From a virus: a stretch of DNA of 32,357 nt. Positions 22,997 through 32,357 of the stretch are shown here, in pieces. Numbering within the stretch: the first letter of the stretch is position 1; every line of letters starts with the position of its first letter. The notes under the pieces were generated by a model. That model had not been told where the DNA came from. It did no database searches and worked only from the letters and a program-made list of their open reading frames with translations. The position numbers and the translations under genes were made by a program. The DNA lies in IMG/VR virus record IMGVR_UViG_3300034375_009288, positions 1 through 32,357 of that record. One strand, written 5' to 3'.

Positions 22997-23763
22997 TAGC
23001 CGCGGGTGTAGACGCCGCTCTCGCCGCTTTCAGTTGCTAGATCGTCGGCATCCCGCTGGGAGCGGACGACGGGCTGGTATTGCCCACTGGTCCAGGCGAC
23101 ATAGAGGACAACCGCCTTCGCAAGGATGGTCTCAATGACGCCGTTCGGGACATCAATGGTCGTGTCCTTCGTGACCGCCAACTCCTGCTTGATGACGAAG
23201 CGATTAGAGCTGGCGGGGGCGGGCCAGATAATCACGTAGGAGTTGCCTTTGTCCCAGATTTGCTGGTAGTAGTTGGCCGACCCGCTCTCGGTGTCGAAGC
23301 CCCAGCGACCAGCCACTAGGGGGCGAGTGCCGGACCCAGCGGGGGCAACATGCGTGATGCGCCCAGCGTGGGGGAGCAGGATGGTCCGGCGCTTGATGGT
23401 GCCGGAACCCGCCAGGGAGGTCTGAGCCGGGGTCCCGATGTCCAGGTGATGACCAGCGACGCCCCGGATAGGCCACTCGTCGCCGTTCAGGTCAACGAAC
23501 AGGTCGCCGCGCCGGGTCTGGTCAGGATTTTCGCTCAGGTTGACGGTTGCCGATCCGGCGGAGTGGGAGGAGACGGTTACGCTGAGGTCGCCGGGGACGA
23601 CACCAACAACAGTCTCCAACATGGCAGGAACGCCGTCGCTCAGAGTGAGAGCGATGGCGGCGTTGATGACTTCCTCCAAGCGCGAAGTCTCGACGGTAGA
23701 GAGCGTGTCGAGTCCGAGGCGCTCAGCGAGGGTGGCCCGAAGGCCCGCGATGGTGTCTGCCAT
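22996..23763 (-). CDS. Tail adaptor (tail tubular protein A-like), 255 aa
   Basis: First tail gene after the capsid, the position of T7 gp11, and of similar size (T7 gp11 about 196 aa). It begins with a helical segment (MADTIAGLRATLAERLGL, ETSRLEEVINAAIAL) and continues as beta-rich sequence with paired hydrophobic strands (TIKRRTILLPHAGRITHV, NSYVIIWPAPASSNRF), ending in a charged tail. An in-frame start further upstream would run back through the post-capsid hairpin and is rejected. No Shine-Dalgarno precedes the chosen ATG. Predicted to ring the portal and anchor the nozzle. The assignment is from order and fold impression, not from a signature motif. Confidence 0.65.
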   Translation of the reverse strand: MADTIAGLRATLAERLGLDTLSTVETSRLEEVINAAIALTLSDGVPAMLETVVGVVPGDLSVTVSSHSAGSATVNLSENPDQTRRGDLFVDLNGDEWPIRGVAGHHLDIGTPAQTSLAGSGTIKRRTILLPHAGRITHVAPAGSGTRPLVAGRWGFDTESGSANYYQQIWDKGNSYVIIWPAPASSNRFVIKQELAVTKDTTIDVPNGVIETILAKAVVLYVAWTSGQYQPVVRSQRDADDLATESGESGVYTRG

Positions 23764-23777
23764 TTGGGGTGGGGGTA

Positions 23778-23803
23778 GGGGCGCCCCCGTTAAGGAGCGC
23801 CCC
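23778..23803 (-). terminator. Post-capsid hairpin, likely partial terminator or mRNA processing site
   Basis: On the minus strand a 10-bp stem (GGGGCGCTCC with GGGGCGCCCC, one G-U pair) closes a 6-nt loop between the capsid stop and the tail-adaptor start. No U-tract follows, so read-through is expected. A leaky stop here would lower tail-gene expression relative to capsid, as T7 does after gene 10. Confidence 0.6.
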
Positions 23804-23812
23804 GAGATGAGC

Positions 23813-24967
23813 TTAGAGGGTGATGCCCTCCATGTGACCGAACGAGCGACGACCGTTCTCCAGGGAGAAGCCGTGACCCATGGACACACGCTTGAACAGG
23901 TTGGTCGAGGTCGGGTGCGGGAAGACACCGGGCATCTGCTTCAGGAAGCCGATTTGCGGGTTCTTCTGCGCTTCCGGGCCGCCATCAGAGATGGTGCCAG
24001 CCGCGACAACGTTCAGGCGAAGAGACTTGGTGTTCAGGAAGACATACGGGTACTCCGGCGTGGTGGTGGCGGTAAAGTCCCATTCGGCATCCTTGGTATC
24101 GAGCATGCGGTGCCAATCGACAGTGGCAGTACCCATCTGAATGGTACCTTCCTTGCCGAGGTTAGCCATCATGCCCGCGTTGTGGGTAGCAGTCTCCCGC
24201 ACCAACTCAGCCAGCTTGTTGAACACCGACAGACCCGTGAGGATCAGGTCGGGGCTTTCCTGCGGGCCGTACCAGAGCTGACGGAGAGCGTCGTCGGTGT
24301 CCTCGATGAGGCCCGAACCGTTAGGCGCGCTGGTAGTAAACAGTTGCGGTGCCCACTTCGCGGCATCCGAGACGGTCACACCGGCAAAGGACTCCGAGGC
24401 GGGGCGACCCGAGACCAAGCCAGCACCAGACGACAGGAGACCCAGGAGGGACATGCCGTTGACGTCGTAATTGGCGTCGCTCTCGTAAGGAGCGCGAGCA
24501 GTCGGGTTAGCACCATCAGCGGTGGCGTTACCGAGGACGAAGTTCGACTCCAGCTCGTAGAACATGCCAATCGCGTTAGACATGACCAGGGCATCCATGT
24601 AGGAGACCGGGTTGCCTTGCAGCGGCATGTCCTGCGGGAAGTTGAGGTTGCGCGAACGGAACACAACATCGAACTTCGCCTGAGTCAGGATTTCCGCGGA
24701 ATCGGCGCTAAGGGATGCCCCCGCACCGAAGTTATCGCGGCGATACGCGACGGTAGCCGAGCCGCCGTCAGCGTGGAGCAGCGGGTGGCTGTAACGATCG
24801 CTGTCCGGGACCACGAAGATGCGGCCTCGTTCGGCGAGGTACTGGAGCAGCTTCTCACCGCCGTCGTTGATGACTTGGGTGAGGTTGCGAGAAACTCCGT
24901 CAATGGACGTGGTGGCGAGGGTATCAACCTTGCTCGCCGGGGTGTCTTCAGCCCAGGGAAAGGCCAT
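23813..24967 (-). CDS. Major capsid protein, 384 aa
   Basis: Predicted head shell subunit. Evidence is contextual and compositional: it follows a scaffold-like gene, precedes the tail adaptor, has a typical capsid length, and has even Ala/Gly/Thr/Asn composition without Cys or enzyme motifs. An N-terminal helical part (residues 10-45) leads into long beta-rich stretches (SATVAYRRDNFGAG, LTQAKFDVVFRSRNLNFPQDM, ELESNFVLGNATADG) and a strand-rich C-terminus (YPYVFLNTKSLRLNVV). It has the only strong Shine-Dalgarno I noticed (AAAGGAG, 7 nt before ATG), fitting very high expression. A post-gene hairpin follows. The lineage (HK97-fold is expected) cannot be proved here. Confidence 0.8.
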   Translation of the reverse strand: MAFPWAEDTPASKVDTLATTSIDGVSRNLTQVINDGGEKLLQYLAERGRIFVVPDSDRYSHPLLHADGGSATVAYRRDNFGAGASLSADSAEILTQAKFDVVFRSRNLNFPQDMPLQGNPVSYMDALVMSNAIGMFYELESNFVLGNATADGANPTARAPYESDANYDVNGMSLLGLLSSGAGLVSGRPASESFAGVTVSDAAKWAPQLFTTSAPNGSGLIEDTDDALRQLWYGPQESPDLILTGLSVFNKLAELVRETATHNAGMMANLGKEGTIQMGTATVDWHRMLDTKDAEWDFTATTTPEYPYVFLNTKSLRLNVVAAGTISDGGPEAQKNPQIGFLKQMPGVFPHPTSTNLFKRVSMGHGFSLENGRRSFGHMEGITL

Positions 24968-24971
24968 GATT

Positions 24972-25005
24972 GGACTCCTTTGTTAAAGGTGGTTTGTGGG
25001 AGTCC
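24972..25005 (-). promoter_or_regulatory. Inverted repeats that can sequester the capsid ribosome-binding site
   Basis: Minus-strand mRNA: GGACTCC (25005-24999) is complementary to GGAGTCC (24978-24972), the latter containing the capsid Shine-Dalgarno GGAG. A second, mutually exclusive hairpin CCTTT-AAC-AAAGG (24989-24977) also covers it. The two structures could alternate to set capsid translation. Confidence 0.45.
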
Positions 25006-25019
25006 CCTTAAAGCCTACG

Positions 25020-25607
25020 TCAATCGTCGGAAGGATTCAGTTTCGCAAGCGGGAGACCAGTCGCGGGGATGTCCAGAACTTCGCCGCTGGACGCTCGCGG
25101 CTGATACAGCGGGTGCATGGGCCGTTCGGCAGGGGCAGCAACCTCCTCGTTACGGATGCCAGCGGCACGAACGATTTTGGCGATACCTTCTCGGGACTGG
25201 AGGGCCGTGGCCTTAAAGTCCTGAGATGCCTCTGCGAACTTGTCGTACTCCGGGGAGCCGACAGCGATGCCATGCTCCTGGATCAGGGTCTTCTCCATTT
25301 GCTGTTGAAGCTCCTGTTTCCGGGACCACTGCTCGTCTCGTTGCTTGAGAGCGTTGTCGAGGTCATCCTGCGTCAGGAACTCGCCCTTCTCACGCTTGGT
25401 GGTGAGGGCTTCATTCACTGCCTTGGATGCACTACGACGGCTGAAATCCTCGACTTTTGACCGCAGCTCCGCGGGGAAATCGTCAAGGCTGCGATACTCC
25501 TTATCCACCGAGTCAGCGATGCGGGTGGCCGGGTCAACGGCGCCGCTATCGGCCTGAGTGTCCGTGGTATCTTCGGGGGTTTCGCGGGAGGTGGTTTCGT
25601 CAGTCAT
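25020..25607 (-). CDS. Scaffolding protein, 195 aa
   Basis: Immediately precedes the capsid gene. The product has the composition of phage scaffolds: an acidic, Thr-rich disordered N-terminus (residues 1-30), a highly charged helical middle (LRSKVEDFSRRSASKAVNEAL and QRDEQWSRKQELQQQMEKTLI, about 48-115), and a Pro-containing C-terminal tail that would touch the capsid subunit. No Cys and no catalytic motif. It assembles with the capsid protein and leaves the head before or during packaging. It has its own promoter with a 5' leader of about 55 nt, and no Shine-Dalgarno before the ATG. Confidence 0.75.
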   Translation of the reverse strand: MTDETTSRETPEDTTDTQADSGAVDPATRIADSVDKEYRSLDDFPAELRSKVEDFSRRSASKAVNEALTTKREKGEFLTQDDLDNALKQRDEQWSRKQELQQQMEKTLIQEHGIAVGSPEYDKFAEASQDFKATALQSREGIAKIVRAAGIRNEEVAAPAERPMHPLYQPRASSGEVLDIPATGLPLAKLNPSDD

Positions 25608-25669
25608 GCTAAAGGGCCGCGTCTTTCGGGTGCCGATGTTCGGGCCGAAGGGGCGGGTGCCGTGCGGGC

Positions 25670-25697
25670 ATTATAATGCACACGGCAGGGGGTGCAA
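25670..25697 (-). promoter_or_regulatory. Promoter for the scaffold-capsid genes, perfectly palindromic -10
   Basis: Minus strand: TTGCAC (25697-25692), 16-bp spacer, TATAAT (25675-25670). The core GCATTATAATGC is a perfect 12-bp palindrome, so a -10 also reads on the plus strand. Unlike its sister promoters this one has a leader, of about 55 nt, before the scaffold ATG at 25607. Confidence 0.8.
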
Positions 25698-25703
25698 GGC
25701 ATT

Positions 25704-26177
25704 TTACTGCCCTTTTTCTTGTTGCGGGCGACTGTACGCCTCGCTGACGGCCTTGTTCTTGGCCTCCTCGCTGGTCCAGTTGCCAGTCTCCGGGTCAATC
25801 CCGTTCTTGACCATCTTCCGGTTCGCGTCGTTCGCGTTCTCCGGGAAGGCGTCTGGGTGGCTCGACGGGAGGGCCAGGATGCGCTTCCGCTTGTCCGGGC
25901 GCGAGTCCTGGTAGCTGGCCTTGAAGATGACACCCGGCACCCGGCTTGGGTTACTGGGGGTGCCGTAGTCCGGCTCGTGGGCGTTGCAGTCCCAGCAGGC
26001 GGTTCGGGAGGGGTCCGGCTCGCCCCCGATCCCTAGCGGTGTGCGGTCGCACAGGACACAAGTACGGGCCGCCACGTCGGTGTAGGCGTCACAGTCCCAG
26101 CAAGCCTTCCGGGTGTCATCAAGGTTCCCGTTCTTGTCGGCGGGGATGCGCCCGCATTCGGTGCAGCGGCTTGACAT
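25704..26177 (-). CDS. CxxC-rich zinc-binding protein, 157 aa
   Basis: The N-terminal 70 residues contain four CxxC pairs (CTEC, CWDC, CVLC, CWDC) in two similar halves, each a likely zinc ribbon (pattern CxEC...ACWDCDA and CxLC...ACWDCNA). This looks like an internal duplication. The rest (75-157) is polar and basic, with a SHPDAFPENANDANRKMVKNG segment, and contains no catalytic motif I know. Position between portal and scaffold suggests either a head-assembly factor or a nucleic-acid-binding insert. It ends just before the scaffold promoter. Confidence 0.7.
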   Translation of the reverse strand: MSSRCTECGRIPADKNGNLDDTRKACWDCDAYTDVAARTCVLCDRTPLGIGGEPDPSRTACWDCNAHEPDYGTPSNPSRVPGVIFKASYQDSRPDKRKRILALPSSHPDAFPENANDANRKMVKNGIDPETGNWTSEEAKNKAVSEAYSRPQQEKGQ

Positions 26178-26224
26178 GTTGGCTCAGATTTGAATGATAA
26201 TCATGCGTACCGTGAATGAACGGC

Positions 26225-26467
26225 TCAACGCCGAACCTCTACGGTGTGGATCCGGACGCGGTAGCCGGGGTAGGTCTGCTCAATCATGTCCAGGTCTTCC
26301 TCGGCCCGGGCAATGCTCGGGTAGGCCGCGAACAGCCAAGTGGGGGCGCCGGGGTTCTGCTCCAGCTCGATGACGTAGGCGTACTGAGGCGCTTCCGGCG
26401 CTGTAGATAGCGTCCAGGCTGCGCTCAGGTGGCCCATGAACAGTGCGATGGCGACGCAGACTTTCAT
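26225..26467 (-). CDS. Small exported protein after the portal gene, 80 aa
   Basis: ATG overlaps the portal stop (TAATG), so it is coupled to portal translation. The first 18 residues form a signal peptide-like segment (MKVCVAIALFMGHLSAAW: one Lys, a hydrophobic core, then SAA). The mature part is about 60 residues with an aromatic strand pattern (YAYVIELEQNPGAPTWLFAAYPS) and a helix (IARAEEDLDMIEQTY) before a final strand, like a small alpha/beta domain. I do not recognise a family. An exported product in a structural operon could act in the periplasm, for example in superinfection exclusion; that is speculation. Confidence 0.65.
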   Translation of the reverse strand: MKVCVAIALFMGHLSAAWTLSTAPEAPQYAYVIELEQNPGAPTWLFAAYPSIARAEEDLDMIEQTYPGYRVRIHTVEVRR

Positions 26468-28446
26468 TATCCCAGCACCTGGCGGGTCATCGCGGGGAGA
26501 GCGCCGGTCGCAGCAGCGGCGGCAATCTGGTTATCGATGTTGCCCTCGGGGGAGACGCCCGGAACCGGGGAGAGGCGGGTCGCGTTCTGGGCCTCGTTGT
26601 GAAGCATCTGGTGACGGTCTAGGGCCGCACGGATGACGCTGACGTCGATGTCCCGCGCACCGTCGGCCAGGGCGCGGTCGATAATCTTCTGGTAGCCGCT
26701 GATGTAGGCCGCGTGGTTGTCGTCCTGGTAAACGGGGATGTCCCTGCCGGTCTCCAGGAACTCGACGTAGCGCGAGATGGGGTCGCCGACAGTCTCCATG
26801 TAGTCGTCTCCATCTTTCCAGCCCGCAGCCTTGAGGAAGCGCCGCAGCACTTCGTTGACCATCCGCATGGCGTTCGGGTTCTGGAAGTTGGCCGCGACGT
26901 TGCTCAGGGTGGTCAGCACCAGCATCTCGGTGTCGAGCTTGCCCTGGCGGCCCTGGTTCTCAAAGGCCACCGGGTCCACGCGGAGGTTCATCGGCATGAC
27001 CTCCGGGTCCGGCACATTCAGGCGCTTGATGATGCCGCCAGCCTGGGGGATTGCCAACTCCTCGCCGAACAGGGCACGCTGGTGCAGCATGATGAGGGTC
27101 GCTGCCTGGGACCAGAGACGAGCCTGGACCCGGATCGCGTCCGTGTTGCGCCGACCCGCAGCCTGGACCAGAGCGGACGCCTCGGTGGCGGACTTCTCCG
27201 GGTTGACTGCTGCGCCACGATCGAGCGGACCCACCCCCGACACATCATCAAACAGTGCAAGAAGTAGGTTTAGAGTGGCGATGAGGTCTGGCAGGGTGGA
27301 GTTCCGCTCGACCGGACGCATGGTGGCGTTCACACCACGCGTGTCCCCGTCGTCTACATCGACAGGGAGGAATACTTGCTGACCGGGGCGGGCGTTCAGG
27401 ATGCCCTTGATGGCCTTGTTCAGGGCCGTGCGGTCGTACAAAATCGTGTTGTTCGTGTTCTGCACCTCGCTCATAATCATGTCGATCACAATGCCGATCG
27501 AGCGCATGAGCGGGAGCCAGGACAGAACTTCCGGCATCGGGATGTCCTCGCCGGGAGGGGCGTCGAGTCCAGCAGCAAGGACCATGACCGGGGCGCGGAG
27601 GATGCGCGTCTTGACGTACTTGCCCAGGTTCGGGTTCCGGCGGCGACGATACCAGATGTCGCCCTCCAGGTTCACGAAGATGGAGGTCGGAACCTCGCGC
27701 CCCGTGTGCTTGTTGGACTCGAACGCCATGCCGGGGTGGTAGACCTCGGTGACGCCCACCAAGTCCCAGGGGCTGGGCTGCTGGTCCGGGGAGACATCGG
27801 AAGTGGCGGCCTCCCGGATGTCCTTGGGGAGGGACCCGAACTGGACCAGAGAGGTGTGCCAGGTAAAGCGGCGGAGGTGGGGTTCGTAGCCGCAGTGGGT
27901 GGACTCGACGACCTCAAAGCCCAGGCGGCGCGACGGCACATCCTCGTCCGGGTTTATCAGGAGGCGAACACCGAAGTAGGGCTGGGTCGGCAGCAGGAAG
28001 GCCACCCGCTCCATGACCTGTTCCAGGTTGGTGCCGGGGATGATGGCATCCATCAGGTCCTGCTGCGACTCGGCGAGCTGCACCGCGCCGTCCAGGAGGG
28101 GGGTAGTCTGGAGGCGCGGTACGCCGGGGGTGGTCGCCGTGACCCGCTGGCGCAGACGGCTCAGGATGAGGTTCGCGCCGGTCTTGGGGATGCGGATGTC
28201 ACCGGGCGCATTTGGGTCCGATAATCCCAGTCCGCTCAGGTCCAGCGTGACCTTCTCGGGGTCCGGGTTGATCAGGAGCGGAGACATGCTGCCGCCCGTC
28301 GCCGGATCGCGGCCCGCCAGCATATCGGAGCTGAGAGCAATCCAGGGTTCGATGGCCTCACTGGTCAGGCGGGCAGACTGGCCCCATGCCTCCTTGAGGT
28401 AGTCCGCTTCTTCCTCGGTGAGCTGGTAGGTATCCGGGCGGGCCAT
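26467..28446 (-). CDS. Portal (head-tail connector) protein, 659 aa
   Basis: Forms the dodecameric ring through which DNA is packaged and ejected. Support: position directly after TerL; length in the podovirus portal range; a central helical region (VIDMIMSEVQNTNNTILYD, ATLNLLLALFDDVSG) and a late acidic/aromatic stretch (VGDPISRYVEFLETGRDIP) before a low-complexity C-terminus. No enzyme motifs. Start chosen at ATG 28446 (MARPDTYQ), 7 nt after the -10 box of its own promoter; an in-frame ATG at 28467 would lie upstream of the transcript start. Expected mRNA is leaderless. The 3' end overlaps the exported-protein gene. Confidence 0.82.
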   Translation of the reverse strand: MARPDTYQLTEEEADYLKEAWGQSARLTSEAIEPWIALSSDMLAGRDPATGGSMSPLLINPDPEKVTLDLSGLGLSDPNAPGDIRIPKTGANLILSRLRQRVTATTPGVPRLQTTPLLDGAVQLAESQQDLMDAIIPGTNLEQVMERVAFLLPTQPYFGVRLLINPDEDVPSRRLGFEVVESTHCGYEPHLRRFTWHTSLVQFGSLPKDIREAATSDVSPDQQPSPWDLVGVTEVYHPGMAFESNKHTGREVPTSIFVNLEGDIWYRRRRNPNLGKYVKTRILRAPVMVLAAGLDAPPGEDIPMPEVLSWLPLMRSIGIVIDMIMSEVQNTNNTILYDRTALNKAIKGILNARPGQQVFLPVDVDDGDTRGVNATMRPVERNSTLPDLIATLNLLLALFDDVSGVGPLDRGAAVNPEKSATEASALVQAAGRRNTDAIRVQARLWSQAATLIMLHQRALFGEELAIPQAGGIIKRLNVPDPEVMPMNLRVDPVAFENQGRQGKLDTEMLVLTTLSNVAANFQNPNAMRMVNEVLRRFLKAAGWKDGDDYMETVGDPISRYVEFLETGRDIPVYQDDNHAAYISGYQKIIDRALADGARDIDVSVIRAALDRHQMLHNEAQNATRLSPVPGVSPEGNIDNQIAAAAATGALPAMTRQVLG

Positions 28447-28453
28447 GTTGGGC

Positions 28454-28481
28454 AGTATAATGCCCACTGGGGGCGTGTCAA
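28454..28481 (-). promoter_or_regulatory. Leaderless promoter for the portal gene, palindromic -10
   Basis: Minus strand: TTGACA (28481-28476), 16-bp spacer, TATACT (28459-28454), then 7 nt to the portal ATG. The -10 is embedded in GGGCAT-TATACT-GCCC. It occupies the 38-nt gap between the TerL stop and the portal start. Confidence 0.85.
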
Positions 28482-28484
28482 GGG

Positions 28485-30104
28485 CTAACTGAAGTAGTTT
28501 CCAGCCGAAGTGTCGCTCATTCGCTCGATAACGCCGGGAACATGGCCGAAATCGCGCTGGTTTAGGGGAGCAGGGTCCCCATCGTCGCCCAGAGGTAGGG
28601 GGCCTCGACGGTCCAGGTGGCCCGCGAGGAGAGCGAGGGCGGCGGGCAAATCGTCGTGGGCGGCCTTCGGATACTGGGTCAGGCGCGACTCCAGGAGCTG
28701 CTGGTTGTGGTAGCCCCTGGGGCCGAAGCGCAGCAGCCCCTTCCTGAGCGCAGTCGGAAACGAACTGAGGCGCATATCCAGCTTCTTGTTCGGGATCTTC
28801 TGGCGGCGCATCCGGGTCTGCTCGATGCGGCCCCGATCCCGGAGCCAGGGCTTGATGACCCCGGAGAATACGACATCCTCAATCCAGATGCCGTCCACGT
28901 CGGGAGCGATGGTCTCGAGGGCCTGGATGGCGGTGTCGGCGTTTCCGCGCAGCTCCTCGGCCCAGTAGGGGATGAAGATGTTCTGGTCCGCCCCCGCGTG
29001 GGGAGACTGTAGCTCAGGGGGCAGCGAGCCGTTGGGGGCGACGCGGACCTTGATAAGGCCGTTCCGGTCCAGCGATTCGCCGGTCGCGACGGCCACGGGG
29101 TCCACGAGGAGGATGTCCTGGCCGTGGGGGAGGGGGCGGTCGCTCGGCCAGCGCGACTTCTCGATTTGGTCCTGGGTGAACAGGGCGGAATCGCCGACCG
29201 ATGGGACGCACATGTATTGCATCTCAAAGAAGCCGGGGTTGTCCGACAAATCCTCCTTGACCATCGCAATCTCGCGCTCGTTCAGGAAGGAGGGGCAGAG
29301 CGGAGTGCCGCCGGGGCCGTCGAGGACGCCGTACCTGATTTGGTGCCAGGAGGACTTCTGGCCCAGGTAGGCGCAGATGTCCCAGAACGCCCAGGGAGTT
29401 CCGATGTGGAAGATGGGCGAGTCGTAGTTGTACATCAGCGGGACGAGCTGGTCCACGAAGTCGATGGCCTTCTGACACTGGGCCGGGGTCGTGGAGGTCG
29501 TCTCGTTGGTGGGGTCGTCCAGCTTGGCGCGGCGGGGGTGGCGACCCGCGAGGTTTGAGCCGGGGGAGGACACGAAGACCGAGGGTTCGCGGCCAGGGGT
29601 GCCCTCGCGGCCCACCACGTCGAGGGTTTCGCACGGACCAGATCGAGCGCCCTGCCCGAACACCGGGGCGGCCCAGGGGAAGATTTCCTTGAGCGGGACG
29701 AACACCCCCGGCCAGATTTCTAGGTCGCCAGCCAGGATGTCGCGCACCCGGCCCAGGAGCTGCTTCGCCAGCTTCGTCTCGGCGGAGGCCAGGAGGATTC
29801 GGTCGCCGGGGTCAACCACCAGGTCGTGCGCCGTGCCAATCTCGGATTCAAGGGTGGACTTGGCGTGTCCGCGGGGGACAATCAGCGAACACTTGTTGTA
29901 GGTGTTCTTGGCGCGGACAATCTCGCGGTGGAGGCGTCCGAACTTCTTCCGGCCATCGGGCGTTCCCTTGTACCCGGCTGCGATGCCGAACGCAATCTGG
30001 TCGGCGTGGCAGGCCCGGATCGCGGCCAGGAGGTTGTCGGGTGTGGGCTGGTCGCTCACTGGGGGCGGTTGGTCCGCAGTGGAGGGGTCCGGCTGGTCGC
30101 TCAC
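28485..30104 (-). CDS. terL: Terminase large subunit (packaging ATPase/nuclease), 539 aa
   Basis: Motor that drives DNA into the head and cuts the concatemer. ATPase part: a variant Walker A VPRGHAKST (like the RGHGKS form of T7-type terminases), Walker B-like AKLDD, then the TNETTSTT coupling region. Nuclease part: an Asp in ILLVDPVAVA and a late Asp pair in HDDLPAALALLA, as in RNase H-fold terminase nucleases. Length suits podoviruses. Start GTG at 30104 overlaps the upstream stop; a second in-frame GTG at 30059 lies in a duplicate of the same 23-nt block, so the first 15 residues may be optional. A longer in-frame start at 30233 is rejected because it runs across the upstream gene. Confidence 0.92.
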   Translation of the reverse strand: MSDQPDPSTADQPPPVSDQPTPDNLLAAIRACHADQIAFGIAAGYKGTPDGRKKFGRLHREIVRAKNTYNKCSLIVPRGHAKSTLESEIGTAHDLVVDPGDRILLASAETKLAKQLLGRVRDILAGDLEIWPGVFVPLKEIFPWAAPVFGQGARSGPCETLDVVGREGTPGREPSVFVSSPGSNLAGRHPRRAKLDDPTNETTSTTPAQCQKAIDFVDQLVPLMYNYDSPIFHIGTPWAFWDICAYLGQKSSWHQIRYGVLDGPGGTPLCPSFLNEREIAMVKEDLSDNPGFFEMQYMCVPSVGDSALFTQDQIEKSRWPSDRPLPHGQDILLVDPVAVATGESLDRNGLIKVRVAPNGSLPPELQSPHAGADQNIFIPYWAEELRGNADTAIQALETIAPDVDGIWIEDVVFSGVIKPWLRDRGRIEQTRMRRQKIPNKKLDMRLSSFPTALRKGLLRFGPRGYHNQQLLESRLTQYPKAAHDDLPAALALLAGHLDRRGPLPLGDDGDPAPLNQRDFGHVPGVIERMSDTSAGNYFS

Positions 30105-30113
30105 TGGGGGCGG
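30046..30113 (-). repeat. 23-bp direct repeat, 45-bp period, at the terL start
   Basis: An identical 23-bp block occurs at 30046-30068 and 30091-30113. Each copy carries a GTG in the terL frame (PPPVSDQP at protein level), so the gene has two equivalent potential starts exactly 15 codons apart. Confidence 0.8.
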
Positions 30114-30367
30114 CTGTCCTCGTCCGGCTCGTCGGGAGACCTGAGCAGCGAGTGGAGGACGCCGAGGAAGTCGCCTTGACCAGAGAGGCTGAGCGACCAG
30201 AAATCGCCGCCCTCCTCCCGGTAGATGCCGCACAGGGTCAGGTCGCCGCGTCGCTTCATCTCGTCAAGGATTTCGGCGTCGCTGGCCGTGCGGAGGGCTG
30301 GGCCGAGGGTGAGAGGGTCCGGCCAGGGGTCCGGAGGGGTGGGGTCGGGGTCGGCGTCGCGGGACAT
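30101..30367 (-). CDS. Small protein upstream of TerL (small-terminase candidate), 88 aa
   Basis: ATG at 30367 lies 10 nt after the -10 of a promoter on the same strand, which fixes this start; the frame stays open far upstream only because the GC-rich control region lacks stops. The product begins with an Asp/Pro-rich tail (DADPDPTPPDPWPDPL), has one helix (SDAEILDEMKRRGDL) and a strand-helix end (FWSLSLSGQGDFLGVLHSLLRS). Position right before TerL is where small terminase usually sits, but it is short and shows no clear helix-turn-helix, so that role is only possible. Confidence 0.65.
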   Translation of the reverse strand: MSRDADPDPTPPDPWPDPLTLGPALRTASDAEILDEMKRRGDLTLCGIYREEGGDFWSLSLSGQGDFLGVLHSLLRSPDEPDEDSRPQ

Positions 30368-30377
30368 GGTTGTGGGC

Positions 30378-30406
30378 AGTATAGTGCGCGGGTTGGGGCG
30401 GGTCAA
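30378..30406 (-). promoter_or_regulatory. First promoter of the minus-strand late arm, palindromic -10
   Basis: Minus strand: TTGACC (30406-30401), 17-bp spacer, TATACT (30383-30378) within GCGCAC-TATACT-GCCC, then 10 nt to the ATG at 30367. Predicted leader is about 3 nt. Confidence 0.82.
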
Positions 30407-30481
30407 GGGGTGGTGGCTCGTGGGCGGGCGGGACCCGGCGCGCCCCCGGAGGGCGGCCCCCTCGATCCGCGCGGGCGGGCG

Positions 30482-30555
30482 CGGCGCTCGACTACCGCGG
30501 TCGTCGGCGGCGGGGCGGCGGCGCTCGACTACCGCGGTCGTCGGCGGCGGGGCGG
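30482..30555. repeat. Two tandem copies of a 37-bp repeat with near-palindromic core
   Basis: Copies at 30482-30518 and 30519-30555 are identical. Each contains CGACTACCGCGGTCGTCG, an imperfect dyad around CCGCGG with a single mismatched pair. The repeat lies between the divergent promoters and could be an operator pair or replication iterons. Confidence 0.75.
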
Positions 30556-30602
30556 CGGGGCGGCGGGCGGGCGGGGCGGCGGCGGGCGGGCGGGCGGCGG
30601 GG
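30549..30602 (+). other. G-run tract in the divergent control region (potential G-quadruplex)
   Basis: Nine runs of three or four G lie within 54 nt, mostly separated by one to four nucleotides, more than enough for intramolecular quadruplexes on the plus strand. The 30368-30719 intergenic region otherwise holds the two divergent promoters, the 37-bp repeats and an A/C-rich leader; I see no gene in it. Confidence 0.6.
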
Positions 30603-30629
30603 TGGCCGAAAGTTTTATCGAATTGGGTA

Positions 30630-30658
30630 TTGACAGGCGGCGAGCGGTCTCCGATATT
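30630..30658 (+). promoter_or_regulatory. Promoter of the plus-strand early arm
   Basis: TTGACA (30630-30635), a 17-bp spacer, then GATATT (30653-30658); TATTAA two bases on is an alternative -10. It lies in an abrupt AT-rich island after the G-run tract. It lacks the GGGC/GCCC palindrome of the other promoters, so it may be controlled differently. Confidence 0.65.
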
Positions 30659-30719
30659 AATAATGTGCGTCGGGCAACACCGCTCGCCACCACCACCACC
30701 CAGAACCAGAACCAGAACC

Positions 30720-30923
30720 ATGACCACCACCACCATCAACGCGAACACCCTCGCCAAGCTGGACAAGCTTGCTGGCGACCTCGACCTCAACATCCTGGAC
30801 TTCATCGTGGCCTTGGCCGAGAACGCCCACGCCGACGAGGTGGCGATGCGATGCGAGGAGTTCGGCGGCGACGAGCGACGGGCTCTGGTCGCTCTCGACC
30901 GCATCCTGTCCTTCGGCCTGTAA
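30720..30923 (+). CDS. First early gene, unknown, 67 aa
   Basis: First gene downstream of the plus-strand promoter. The ATG follows an A/C-only leader with repeated CAC and AACCAG units and no Shine-Dalgarno. After a Thr-rich start the product is an acidic all-helical protein (ANTLAKLDKLAGDLDLNI, LDFIVALAENAHADEVAMRC, DERRALVALDRILSF). No Cys motif apart from one Cys, no signal peptide. The family is not recognised; a small host-takeover protein would fit its place. A two-hairpin element follows its stop. Confidence 0.72.
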   Translation: MTTTTINANTLAKLDKLAGDLDLNILDFIVALAENAHADEVAMRCEEFGGDERRALVALDRILSFGL

Positions 30924-30943
30924 GCCACCACCACCACCGTCTC

Positions 30944-31008
30944 GCCCCGTGTCAGCTTGACTGGCGCGGGGCTACGGCAGTGAAGGGCGGCGCAATACCG
31001 CGACCGCC
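30944..31008 (+). other. Early-region two-hairpin intergenic element, copy A
   Basis: Hairpin 1: 12-bp stem (30944-30955 with 30961-30972, two G-U pairs), loop CTTGA, no U-tract. Linker TACGGCAGTGAAG. Hairpin 2: GGCGG-CGC (30986-30993), loop AATACC, GCG-A-CCGCC (31000-31008) with one bulged A. CCCCGAGA and an A-run lead to the next ATG. Hairpin 2 is identical over 23 nt to copy B. Confidence 0.75.
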
Positions 31009-31027
31009 AGACCCCGAGACCGAAAAA

Positions 31028-31240
31028 ATGACCGCACCAAAAAACCTTCGATTCCAGCCTTCCGGCGGATTCCCCGCCTTCCACGAAGACCATGGCTCTC
31101 CAGCCGCCTGCCGCTACATTCTCGCGTCCATGCTTCGGCGGTGGCGTCGGGAAGGCGCGGACGTCAGTGGTTCCCGCGGCGTCTTCCGGGTCGCGGCTCA
31201 GGACTTCACTGGAGCCGTCTACGCCCCTGCCCGCGGCTAA
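31028..31240 (+). CDS. Early gene, unknown, 70 aa
   Basis: ATG at 31028 follows CCCCGAGACCGAAAAA, the conserved 3' edge of copy A of the two-hairpin element; the frame is open far upstream only through stop-poor GC-rich DNA. The product is basic (LRRWRREGADV) with an aromatic, Gly-rich N-terminus (FQPSGGFPAFHED) and a short strand-rich C-terminus (GVFRVAAQDFTGAVY). No membrane segment. Function unknown; small basic early proteins often bind host enzymes or nucleic acid. Confidence 0.68.
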   Translation: MTAPKNLRFQPSGGFPAFHEDHGSPAACRYILASMLRRWRREGADVSGSRGVFRVAAQDFTGAVYAPARG

Positions 31241-31252
31241 GGCAGTCAATCA

Positions 31253-31420
31253 ATGCTGCTCGCCCTCACCTACACGCTAGCCGCCGTCATCGGCGGAATC
31301 CTGTTTAGCGCTGTTCCGTTCCCCGGCGAACGCGCCGCTCGCCGTGAACGCGACCGCGCCGCCGCCTACTGCGTCATGCGGGACGGCATCCGCCGTAGCC
31401 GCAACGCCGATATCGGCTAG
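31253..31420 (+). CDS. Early gene, small single-pass membrane protein, 55 aa
   Basis: Starts 12 nt after the previous stop, behind a bare copy of the linker motif (TAAGGCAGT) without hairpins. Residues 1-22 form a transmembrane helix (LLALTYTLAAVIGGILFSAV); the rest is strongly basic (ERAARRERDRAAAYC and RRSRNADIG), so the tail should face the cytoplasm. No Shine-Dalgarno. Possible roles are membrane remodelling or superinfection exclusion, neither shown by sequence. Its end (ADIG-stop) resembles the end of the gene at 31911. Confidence 0.62.
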   Translation: MLLALTYTLAAVIGGILFSAVPFPGERAARRERDRAAAYCVMRDGIRRSRNADIG

Positions 31421-31441
31421 CCTCCCCGCCCTCCCGCCCTT

Positions 31442-31506
31442 GCCCGTGTCGCCCCGAGAGGGACACGGGCTTAGGCGGTGAGAGGCGGCGCAATACCGCG
31501 ACCGCC
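31442..31506 (+). other. Early-region two-hairpin intergenic element, copy B
   Basis: Hairpin 1: GCCCGTGTC (31442-31450) with GACACGGGC (31462-31470), a different stem sequence from copy A. Linker TTAGGCGGTGAGA. Hairpin 2 (31484-31506) repeats copy A exactly, bulged A included. ACCCGAGA and an A-rich run lead to the ATG at 31524. Confidence 0.75.
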
Positions 31507-31523
31507 AAACCCGAGAAAGAAAC

Positions 31524-31895
31524 ATGAGCGATTCTACCCTATTCCCCCGCCGCTGCGACGATTGCGTCGAAGTGATGGACCTGACCACTGAAGACCGCGC
31601 CCGCGCCTATGTTGCGCTAGTGTGCCTGGAGTCTGGCGCGCACCCACTGCATCTGACCGAAGTGGACTGCGCCGCGTTGGAGAAGGCCGGATTCGTCGAC
31701 GGCGAGGAGCCGTTCTCTATGGATTTCCTCCAGGACTGTCCGAACGTCCCCGAAGTAGTACGCCTTGCTTCTGATTTGCTGCCGCCACATCTCGACGCGC
31801 CCGAAAAGTGCTGGGCCTGCGACGGATTCGGCATCGACGCGCGGTGGGAGCGCAAGCCTTGTCTCCACTGCGACGGCGACGGCTACATCCTGTAA
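31524..31895 (+). CDS. Early gene with DnaJ-like cysteine pairs, 123 aa
   Basis: The C-terminus carries two CxxCxGxG-type units (CWACDGFG near residue 96 and CLHCDGDG near 113), the zinc-binding repeat of DnaJ-type zinc fingers; here two repeats could bind one zinc. A further CDDC sits near residue 11. The middle is acidic and helical (DRARAYVALVCLESG, PNVPEVVRLASDLL). There is no J domain. It may be a small chaperone-like or nucleic-acid-binding protein. Preceded by copy B of the two-hairpin element and a weak GAGAAAG ribosome site. Confidence 0.75.
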   Translation: MSDSTLFPRRCDDCVEVMDLTTEDRARAYVALVCLESGAHPLHLTEVDCAALEKAGFVDGEEPFSMDFLQDCPNVPEVVRLASDLLPPHLDAPEKCWACDGFGIDARWERKPCLHCDGDGYIL

Positions 31896-31910
31896 ACCCA
31901 AACCCAAAAA

Positions 31911-32126
31911 ATGACCATGGATTCCCTTCCCGAACTCCTACTTGAACTCTCAAAGGCGACTGAAGCAGCGAGCACGATTGAGTTCTTCAAAGCACAGCTA
32001 AAATCTGTCCGCGAAAATGATTCGGACCTAATCGCCGCCGAAAAGGATAGACTCGCCGACGCGCTCCACCAAGCCGGGGAGCATATCGCCGCTATGGCCA
32101 GAGAATACGGCGTGGAAATCGGCTAG
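31911..32126 (+). CDS. Early gene, coiled-coil protein, 71 aa
   Basis: Starts 15 nt after the previous stop, behind an A/C-only leader without Shine-Dalgarno. Almost the whole product is one acidic helix with heptad-like spacing (LLLELSKATEAASTIEFF, LIAAEKDRLADALHQAGEHIAAMA), suggesting dimerisation. No Cys and no membrane segment. Not recognised; a regulator or host-protein inhibitor would fit the early region. Confidence 0.68.
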   Translation: MTMDSLPELLLELSKATEAASTIEFFKAQLKSVRENDSDLIAAEKDRLADALHQAGEHIAAMAREYGVEIG

Positions 32127-32152
32127 GCTTCCCGCCCGCCCCCGATGAACCG

Positions 32153-32248
32153 ATGAAACCTACCCGAAAAGAATCACGCGCTGAGGCGATCCGTTGCGCC
32201 GCCATCGTCGCCTTCCTTCTCGCCTTCCTGATTATCTGCCCCGCATGA
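32153..32248 (+). CDS. 31-aa early membrane peptide
   Basis: A basic N-terminus (MKPTRKESRAEAIRC) is followed by one hydrophobic helix (AAIVAFLLAFLIICPA) reaching the C-terminus. This is the charge layout of a small inner-membrane phage peptide, and it could also be read as an uncleaved signal anchor. It lies 26 nt after the previous stop and is followed by copy C of the two-hairpin element. Confidence 0.55.
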   Translation: MKPTRKESRAEAIRCAAIVAFLLAFLIICPA

Positions 32249-32274
32249 GCTAGGCGCGAGCGTACTCCGCCCCA

Positions 32275-32335
32275 CCCCGTTCCGGCTCGACCGGCGCGGG
32301 GCTAGGGCAGTGAAGGGGGCCGATTCCCGGACCCC
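32275..32335 (+). other. Early-region two-hairpin intergenic element, copy C (diverged)
   Basis: Hairpin 1: 11-bp stem with one mismatch (32275-32285 with 32291-32301), loop CTCGA. Linker TAGGGCAGTGAAG. Hairpin 2: GGGG-CCG (32316-32322), loop ATTCC, CGG-A-CCCC (32328-32335). The stem differs from copies A and B, yet pairing and the bulged A are kept. CCTGAGA leads to an ATG at 32351. Confidence 0.7.
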
Positions 32336-32350
32336 GACCTGAGACAGCCC

Positions 32351-32357
32351 ATGAAAC
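32351..32357 (+). CDS. Start of a next early gene, cut by the window edge
   Basis: An ATG at 32351 stands at the position where copies A and B place their start codons, 15 nt after hairpin 2 and 6 nt after CTGAGA. Only ATG AAA is visible, so nothing can be said about the product. Confidence 0.4.

Follow-up and report, generated by a model that had tools for sequence, protein, structure and literature searches.

Dunn and Studier are said to have found in 1973 that the early RNA of phage T7 is cleaved by RNase III. The RNase III sites of T7 consist of one long hairpin which is cut inside; a site of this type has a helix of about 20 bp and is cut in an internal loop. The promoter early stem-loop (PeSL) cassettes of T4-type phages carry an early promoter, and their stem-loops, located at the gene junctions of the early region, have been linked to gene shuffling. 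The put element of phage HK022 is described, in the part of the source considered here, as an RNA of about 70 nt with two stem-loops, of which each early transcript has one, downstream of PL or PR (PMC9378689). The consulted section on the SAS and ESAS repeats of cluster K mycobacteriophages places them before the starts of non-structural genes, about half of them with an upstream inverted repeat; the SAS is a conserved box of 13 bp whose AGGAG is typically 3–7 bp from the start, and the inverted repeats of ESAS have a sequence consensus (PMC3203893). The PeSL of T4-type phages are also mentioned in PMC4503421.

The DNA analysed here (the window) is the virus contig IMGVR_UViG_3300034375_009288, over its 32,357 bases. 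Its late genes are on the minus strand of the window and include two that encode proteins of about 1,660 aa. Genes for a helicase, a DNA polymerase and a Cas4-like exonuclease are on the plus strand, in the left part, and the plus-strand early region starts near the right end, where it is truncated by the end of the contig. Among 50,697 deposited phage records, the terminase of the window has two weak matches (25%) and the 666-aa protein has none; the polymerase has distant matches in many phages. No phage DNA similar to positions 30600-32357 was found, and the gene at 31524-31895, the only downstream gene tried, has no relatives in viral contigs by peptide patterns. When genomes were scanned with the terminase, a Flavobacteriales MAG yielded a near-identical contig and a Gemmatimonadota MAG a distant one, within N-bordered sequence; either is possibly an assembly or binning error.

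The first-pass annotation of this DNA proposed that three gaps between early genes hold copies of one RNA element. Indeed, the three intergenic copies (A, B and C) lie at the positions that it gave and have the anatomy hairpin 1 / GGCRGTGARR / hairpin 2 / ATG (Table 1). The order of the parts is stop codon, hairpin 1 (outer stem, internal loop, inner stem), RUGA, hairpin 2 and ATG. The GG of the linker doubles as the 3' arm of the short outer stem of hairpin 1, so that the single-stranded part is mainly RUGA. Sequence and folds confirm that the second hairpins of A and B are identical. Copy C keeps the pairing of the second stem, and also the bulged A at 32331, when the hairpin is folded alone, as had been claimed; a longer stretch sets a G opposite this A. 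The ATG behind the three copies are at 31028, 31524 and 32351, the gene behind C being truncated by the contig end. The fold z-scores of the stretches that contain A, B and C are −3.9, −5.5 and −1.2, respectively, so that copy C by itself is unremarkable in energy.

Table 1. Features of the window referred to in the text.
Feature	Position	Strand	Remarks
Head-protein-like protein	23813-24967	minus	E 6e-4
666-aa protein	26467-28467	minus	portal presumed from its place
Large terminase	28485-30233	minus	PHROG 38
Sigma-70-like promoter match	30630..30658	+	TTGACA, 17 nt, GATATT; start would be expected at a G near 30665
First early gene	30720..30923	+	67 aa; nothing in Pfam up to E 0.05
Copy A hairpin 1	30937..30977	+	outer stem CCGU/ACGG; in inner stem 30944-30955 pairs with 30961-30972; loop CUUGA; R1 64.2 bits
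Copy A RUGA linker (GUGA)	30980..30983	+	stop codon 56 nt before
Copy A hairpin 2	30986..31008	+	bulged A at 31003; loop AAUACC
Early gene behind copy A	31028..31240	+	70 aa; no Pfam match
Early gene	31253..31420	+	55 aa; preceded by GGCAGTCAA only
Copy B hairpin 1	31434..31477	+	outer stem uses the GGCG(G) of the linker; inner stem GCCCGUGUC/GACACGGGC; R1 49.6 bits
Copy B RUGA linker (GUGA)	31478..31481	+	stop codon 57 nt before
Copy B hairpin 2	31484..31506	+	same as A; bulged A at 31501
Early gene behind copy B	31524..31895	+	123 aa; DnaJ zinc-finger-like at E 0.016, under the cut-off
Early gene	31911..32126	+	71 aa; no Pfam match
Small hydrophobic early ORF	32153..32248	+	31 aa; directly 5' of copy C
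Copy C hairpin 1	32269..32309	+	outer stem GCCC/GGGC; inner stem spans 32275-32301; loop CUCGA; R1 67.5 bits
Copy C RUGA linker (GUGA)	32310..32313	+	stop codon 61 nt before
Copy C hairpin 2	32316..32335	+	GGGGCCG-AUUCC-CGG-A-CCCC; bulged A at 32331

A descriptor was written which demands RTGA flanked by two strong hairpins, the first ending no more than 5 nt before it and the second beginning no more than 5 nt after it. It matches three times in the early region, also three times on the whole plus strand, and once on the minus strand. In 500 shuffles of the early region the mean is 0.004 matches, the maximum is one and none reaches three (0/500), with energy thresholds that were chosen after the copies had been seen. 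Looser thresholds give extra chance matches within genes of the window.

The element is present in other phages. We count 14 copies in six phages: three each in the window and L085, one each in L095 and L047, four in the L090 phage and two in that of L088, i.e. 11 copies in five phages other than that of the window. Exact 13-mers in common with the window led to L085 (IMGVR_UViG_3300021958_000007). The polymerases of L085, L088 and L090 are 36%, 35% and 34% identical to that of the window, respectively. A pattern scan of viral contigs gave 20 stretches: the contig of L085, L095 (a new phage whose terminase is 42% identical), 11 leaders of DUF3489-type genes and seven others. The stretches in L094, L098, L101, L103, L107, L109 and L111 were judged from their folds to be chance matches. 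A scan with the pattern GGCRGTGARRGGCGGYGCRATACCGC returned no match, and a second pattern scan returned three contigs, all from the same phage group.

The covariance model that the first-pass annotation had called for was made from six copies (R1) and found seven more in relatives, in their early regions and behind stop codons, in agreement with the expectation of further copies ahead of early genes. In a search of 91 loci (1.07 Mb), R1 gives 23 matches up to E 5, which are the six copies of the model, L090 (30 bits, E 4e-5), L047 (18.7 bits, E 0.08), DUF3489 leaders, antisense matches and chance matches. Applied to more sequence of two genomes, it detects the four copies of the L090 phage as well as both copies of the L088 phage; the copy L085:3682 was picked up by the descriptor and missed by R1. 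The weakest accepted copies (both of L088, 90_2 and 47_1) score 18.6–20.9 bits, no higher than the DUF3489 leaders; it was their context (early region, stop codon and RUGA), rather than the score alone, that led to their acceptance. The copy of which we are least sure is 47_1. Over 31 chosen sources, with E up to 10, R1 recovers 13 of the 14 copies together with four antisense matches, the bare linker described below and 12 chance matches; R2, which is the alignment of R1 without base pairs, recovers 10 of the 14 in the same sources, plus two antisense matches. The early proteins of the L088 and L090 phages give five matches, four of which are 88–94% identical (one over 13 aa) and the fifth 45%; these phages are therefore closely related and their copies are not independent. 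Many of the relatives searched, among them L005, L006, L033, L079 and L082, which have early sequence, gave no convincing copy, so that the element is patchy within the phage group. The number of perfect hairpins per early region does not separate phages with the element from phages without it.

Some details of the initial description hold for part of the copies, or fail. The bare linker reported before the gene at 31253 reads GGCAGTCAA, is devoid of RTGA and of both hairpins, and is not a copy (14.9 bits; E 0.058 in one search and 0.49 in another). The single unpaired A on the 3' arm of hairpin 2 is present in A, B, C and 88_1; in the other copies this arm has GA, AA, AGUA or no such bulge. 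Similarly, the CCYGAGA that was described between RUGA and the ATG is limited to four of the 14 copies (A, B, C and 90_4) and the L117 leader.

Alignments of the whole element with MAFFT are poor and the statistics were therefore restricted to hairpin 1 and the linker. The covariation set consists of 12 of the 14 copies, 85_7 and 47_1 having been excluded beforehand. In this set 89.9% of the cells of hairpin 1 are paired, compared to 31.6–48.3% with slid partners. The number of cells changed on both sides is 32, versus 14.0 in shuffles (0/500), and the covariation score is 0.480 versus 0.203 (0/500), in a control which does not correct for the kinship of copies from one phage group. Two other measures are not above chance: seven of 15 pairs are changed on both sides (6.3 in shuffles; 220/500), and there are 20 pair types (17.8 in shuffles; 78/500). 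Pairing is kept in 95.5% of the cells of the inner stem and 74.5% of those of the outer stem. The inner stem has 107 Watson-Crick, 19 G-U, no A-C and six other cells; the outer stem has 32 Watson-Crick, three G-U, two A-C and 10 other cells, and one gap. The presence of 19 G-U cells against no A-C cell shows that at least the inner stem is constrained as sense RNA. Hairpin 1 is thus under selection as RNA, which bears out the selection on structure that had been deduced from the window's three copies, and the covariation in relatives that had been named as support for it. The letters change but the pairing is kept, and the folded piece that recurs between early genes of these uncultured phages, usually with a second hairpin ahead of the next start, is therefore a real RNA element.

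Hairpin 1 has 12–19 predicted pairs in all, and its loop is CYNGA in six of the 14 copies. Hairpin 2, the loop of which is frequently AAUCC-like (by eye), gives a weaker signal and is less well supported than hairpin 1: the mean fold z over the 14 copies is −1.9, versus −3.8 for hairpin 1, and the value is near zero in C, 90_2, 90_4, 95_1 and 47_1. RUGA is present in all 14 copies, which were anchored on it, and GGNNRUGA in 13 of them (90_1 has AGGC).

The element has a fixed position with respect to the neighboring genes. In 13 of the 14 copies, RUGA follows at 54–61 nt the stop codon of an ORF of 40 codons or more (for five of these copies a second candidate stop is listed as well), and the first pair of hairpin 1 is 7–23 nt downstream of the stop; 90_3 has no upstream stop in range. 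On the other side, an ATG is 37–52 nt from RUGA in 12 of the 14 copies (for 88_1, the ATG at 46 was chosen over an alternative at 30), and no downstream ORF of at least 25 aa follows 90_2 and 47_1.

Three simple roles of the linker were considered and rejected. GGNNRUGA resembles the Shine-Dalgarno sequence GGAGGUGA, but its middle positions are never AG (they are CA in seven copies and otherwise CG, CC, UG, UA (twice) and GC), and the distance of 37–52 nt to the ATG also excludes this function. An upstream ORF that would start at RUG is not conserved among the seven of 14 copies that were read by eye: four of the frames stop close to the ATG, one runs in frame and two overlap out of frame. 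A switch between the linker and the tail was assessed with 12 of the 14 copies (47_1 and 90_2 were dropped); a copy's own tail binds better than shuffled tails (p 0.025) but no better than swapped tails (p 0.40).

A scan of 30400-32357 for sigma-70-like promoters gives a single match (Table 1; the mean in shuffles is 0.3) and none at A, B or C. In the same stretch there is no terminator-like site (GC-rich stem followed by a U run) at the three copies, the only one being at 31281-31296, inside a gene; the first hairpin lacks a U-tract, as was originally noted. From hairpin 2 on, the copies resemble the first leaders of the early regions. In the five pairs compared, 90_1 agrees with the first leader of its own phage at 43 of 52 positions and with that of the L088 phage at 46 of 52, and 85_2 with that of its own phage at 42 of 52 (0/500 shuffles in each case); the similarity to the first leader of L117 is equaled by 0/500 shuffles for copy A and 1/500 for copy B. 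L117 is about 96% identical to the window over positions 23087-30461, except for a short gap, and the first genes of the two differ.

The 30 nt upstream of the shared part of the leader show no such similarity (between 114 and 458 of the 500 shuffles do as well), a difference that is partly due to the boundary being placed at the start of the match. In the first leaders, this upstream stretch has a GATANN box (by eye), which would put the start about 7 nt later; the scored promoter match is found in the window's leader only. In L085 the shared stretch starts at the G of RUGA, and the −10 box GATAAT would put the start of transcription at that same G. As judged by this comparison, hairpin 1 and RUGA occupy the place of the promoter-like stretch of the first leader. 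This favors a device that makes 5' ends, by cutting, over a mere spacer, and is no proof of it. The similarity of the leaders would also fit an uncleaved translation leader or an internal promoter of unrecognised type.

The reading that we prefer, to which we give a probability of roughly 0.4 (0.43), is that the element ensures intercistronic processing and insulation, and gives the downstream cistrons the leader of the primary transcript. These structured intercistronic RNAs would be the punctuation marks of phage early operons. The upstream message would end in hairpin 1, RUGA would be an exposed site between the hairpins, probably cut (in the simplest case between U and G) by an endonuclease of the host or the phage, and hairpin 2 and the tail would form a 5' leader which is also carried by the primary early transcript. 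Both new RNA ends would be capped by hairpins, and the element would substitute for a promoter, allowing the downstream cistrons to gain the primary leader from the one recognisable promoter. We infer the cleavage, the position of the cut, the enzyme and the stabilising effect; to our knowledge, RUGA is not a site of any endonuclease. It is more doubtful that hairpin 1 and RUGA suffice for a precise cut between U and G, so that separate messages sharing the primary leader would be formed. The cutter would then be a phage or host nuclease new for this site, or the RNA itself.

An uncleaved RNA that serves as a structural insulator and as a translation leader is unlikely, but it has several observations on its side. 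Hairpin 1 would shield the message behind the stop codon, while hairpin 2 and the A-rich tail would hold the next start open, which agrees with the constant distances from the stop and to the start, with the similarity of the leaders and with the fact that a Shine-Dalgarno-like core is present at two of the 24 window starts listed and at none of the early ones (two of these entries are one base off). However, poverty in such cores is not general: they are seen at seven of the 12 starts listed for L085 (several entries are off the start codon) and at two of the seven listed for L095. Besides, the invariance of RUGA, and the fact that hairpin 1 and RUGA form a single unit, would remain unexplained by insulation.

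An antitermination RNA similar to HK022 put, the two stem-loops of which would bind the elongating RNA polymerase and allow read-through, is improbable. Two stem-loops within about 70 nt of an early operon are what such an RNA would show. Against this, there are up to four copies per phage, located between genes (the L090 phage has four and the window three), compared to one put per early transcript of HK022 in the part of the source considered; the distance to the stop codon is fixed in 13 of the 14 copies, and the first leaders that were compared hold the hairpin 2 part only.

There is a similarly small chance that the unit is an internal early promoter of unrecognised type, from which transcription would start at the G of RUGA, hairpin 1 being the terminator of the upstream gene, as in a PeSL. 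The unit does sit in the place of the promoter, before a similar leader, but no match was found at A, B or C in the scan for sigma-70-type promoters, and a T7-type polymerase (PF00940) is found in none of seven records, which may be incomplete, in a search in which the controls gave no signal. Moreover, recognition of double-stranded DNA predicts neither the conserved pairing nor the occurrence of G-U without A-C in the inner stem.

It is very improbable that the repeats chiefly serve as a recombination cassette, which shuffles the small early genes at the DNA level, since this leaves the G-U bias of the sense strand, the fixed orientation and the spacing unexplained. Signs of shuffling exist: the window and L117 are nearly identical and yet their first genes differ, 88_1 resembles hairpin 1 of 90_2 fused to hairpin 2 of 90_3 (by eye), and two genes are in reversed order behind the similar copies 88_2 and 90_4 (one of the matches is weak, 45% over 31 aa). 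The repeats may also act as points of recombination, and the shuffling may be a mere by-product of them. Recent duplications of one spacer, i.e. likeness by descent without function, would explain the identical second hairpins of A and B and deserve hardly any credence in view of the slid-partner controls of hairpin 1 and of the compensatory changes across distant phages, even though copies within phage groups are kin.

The element is an RNA family supported by covariation, without a match in Rfam, in a phage group whose terminase has just two weak matches among the deposited phage records. It suggests that such phages punctuate their early RNA with a standard hairpin-linker-hairpin and reuse the primary leader inside the operon. 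How a phage makes separate messages for separate early genes from one promoter can thereby be tested in a reporter of some 100 nt, and the element provides a small RNA part whose ends are defined.

We class the element as a structured punctuation RNA of phage early operons; it belongs to none of the families tested. At the gathering score, Rfam 15 gives no match in the window, consistent with the initial opinion that no described family corresponds to the element, and none in L095; up to E 5, only chance-level, sub-threshold matches are obtained in the window and L085, such as an atpB RNA over copy B (E 1.2, 15.8 of 37.4 bits). A description of the element was not found in the sampled literature on hairpins between phage early genes, structured phage RNAs, the RNase III sites of T7, put, SAS/ESAS and PeSL. 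The leaders of the DUF3489-type genes (11 loci; 17–27 bits with R1) have, like the element, a CCCCG/CGGGG hairpin, GGYGGTGA, a second hairpin and then a start codon. Unlike in the element, GGYGGTGA is paired within the second stem, the genes are others, and an outer stem encloses the whole structure in many folds.

The element is repeated before gene starts like the SAS and ESAS repeats, as these are described in the section consulted; it differs from them in that it has no SAS box and that the stem of hairpin 1 covaries. The box GGGATAGGAGCCC gives seven matches with three mismatches each, below the 16.0 expected by chance, and none past 28840. With putL and putR of HK022, in so far as the excerpt describes them, the element shares a length of about 70 nt, two stem-loops, a location in an early operon and an action as RNA; unlike put, with which it was compared by description rather than by sequence, it is repeated and tied to stop codons. 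Like the PeSL of T4-type phages, it is a stem-loop at the junctions of early genes and is associated with gene shuffling, but no promoter of the sigma-70 type scanned is recognisable at A, B and C, whereas the PeSL carries one. The RNase III sites of T7, like the element, are hairpins between early cistrons of one transcript; in place of the single long hairpin of T7, the element has two hairpins and, between them, an invariant RUGA.

The window and its near-twin phage L117 are about 96% identical across the terminase, portal-like and head genes, and differ, in the part from window position 30461 onward, in their first early genes, which lie just beyond a GC-rich repeat tract. The window also carries a 37-nt unit as a perfect tandem pair, which is flanked by the terminase on one side and by an early promoter on the other. 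The Gemmatimonadota MAG CP070815.1 (L118) contains a terminase relative and a phage-like early region within its chromosome, with runs of N at the borders; this region is perhaps a scaffolded phage contig rather than a prophage.

In L085, the early operon that bears the two-hairpin element contains another repeated spacer between small genes, which occurs as GCCGGGAGGC-TTTAAA-CCCCGGC and CCGGCCCTAGGGCTGG. By eye, the L090 phage has this spacer too, on the minus strand of L121.

The relative L006 lacks the element and carries a different hairpin, which is repeated after stop codons and preserves its pairing across the two copies (GACCCC-UUCG-GGGGUC and GGACCC-UUCG-GGGUCC). By eye, L006 and another relative, L005, have in common a noncoding stretch 5' of a small gene, with arms CCTTTCGAC and GAATAGGTCGAA, which is possibly an origin or a structured RNA.

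Coordinates of the repeats, spacers and hairpins
Feature	Sequence	Positions
37-nt tandem pair	window	30481-30554
Second repeated spacer	L085 (element-bearing phage)	1901-1953, 2169-2202, 2460-2523
Post-stop hairpin	L006	204-267, 619-683
Shared noncoding stretch	L005	5961-6165
Shared noncoding stretch	L006	5495-5711
DUF3489-type leader, all loci	L097, L099, L100, L102, L104, L105, L106, L108, L110, L112, L113	
DUF3489-type leader, example	L108	5474-5558

A leader RNA lies immediately 5' of DUF3489-type genes at 11 loci, and combines a closing stem (GGGAUCC/GGAUCCC in several loci) with two hairpins, one of GCCCCG type and one with UUCGGUGGUGACGGC. Pfam DUF3489 was confirmed for the downstream genes at both of the loci tested. 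Compared with Rfam, these leaders have no match at the gathering score, and they look like a separate cis-regulatory RNA.
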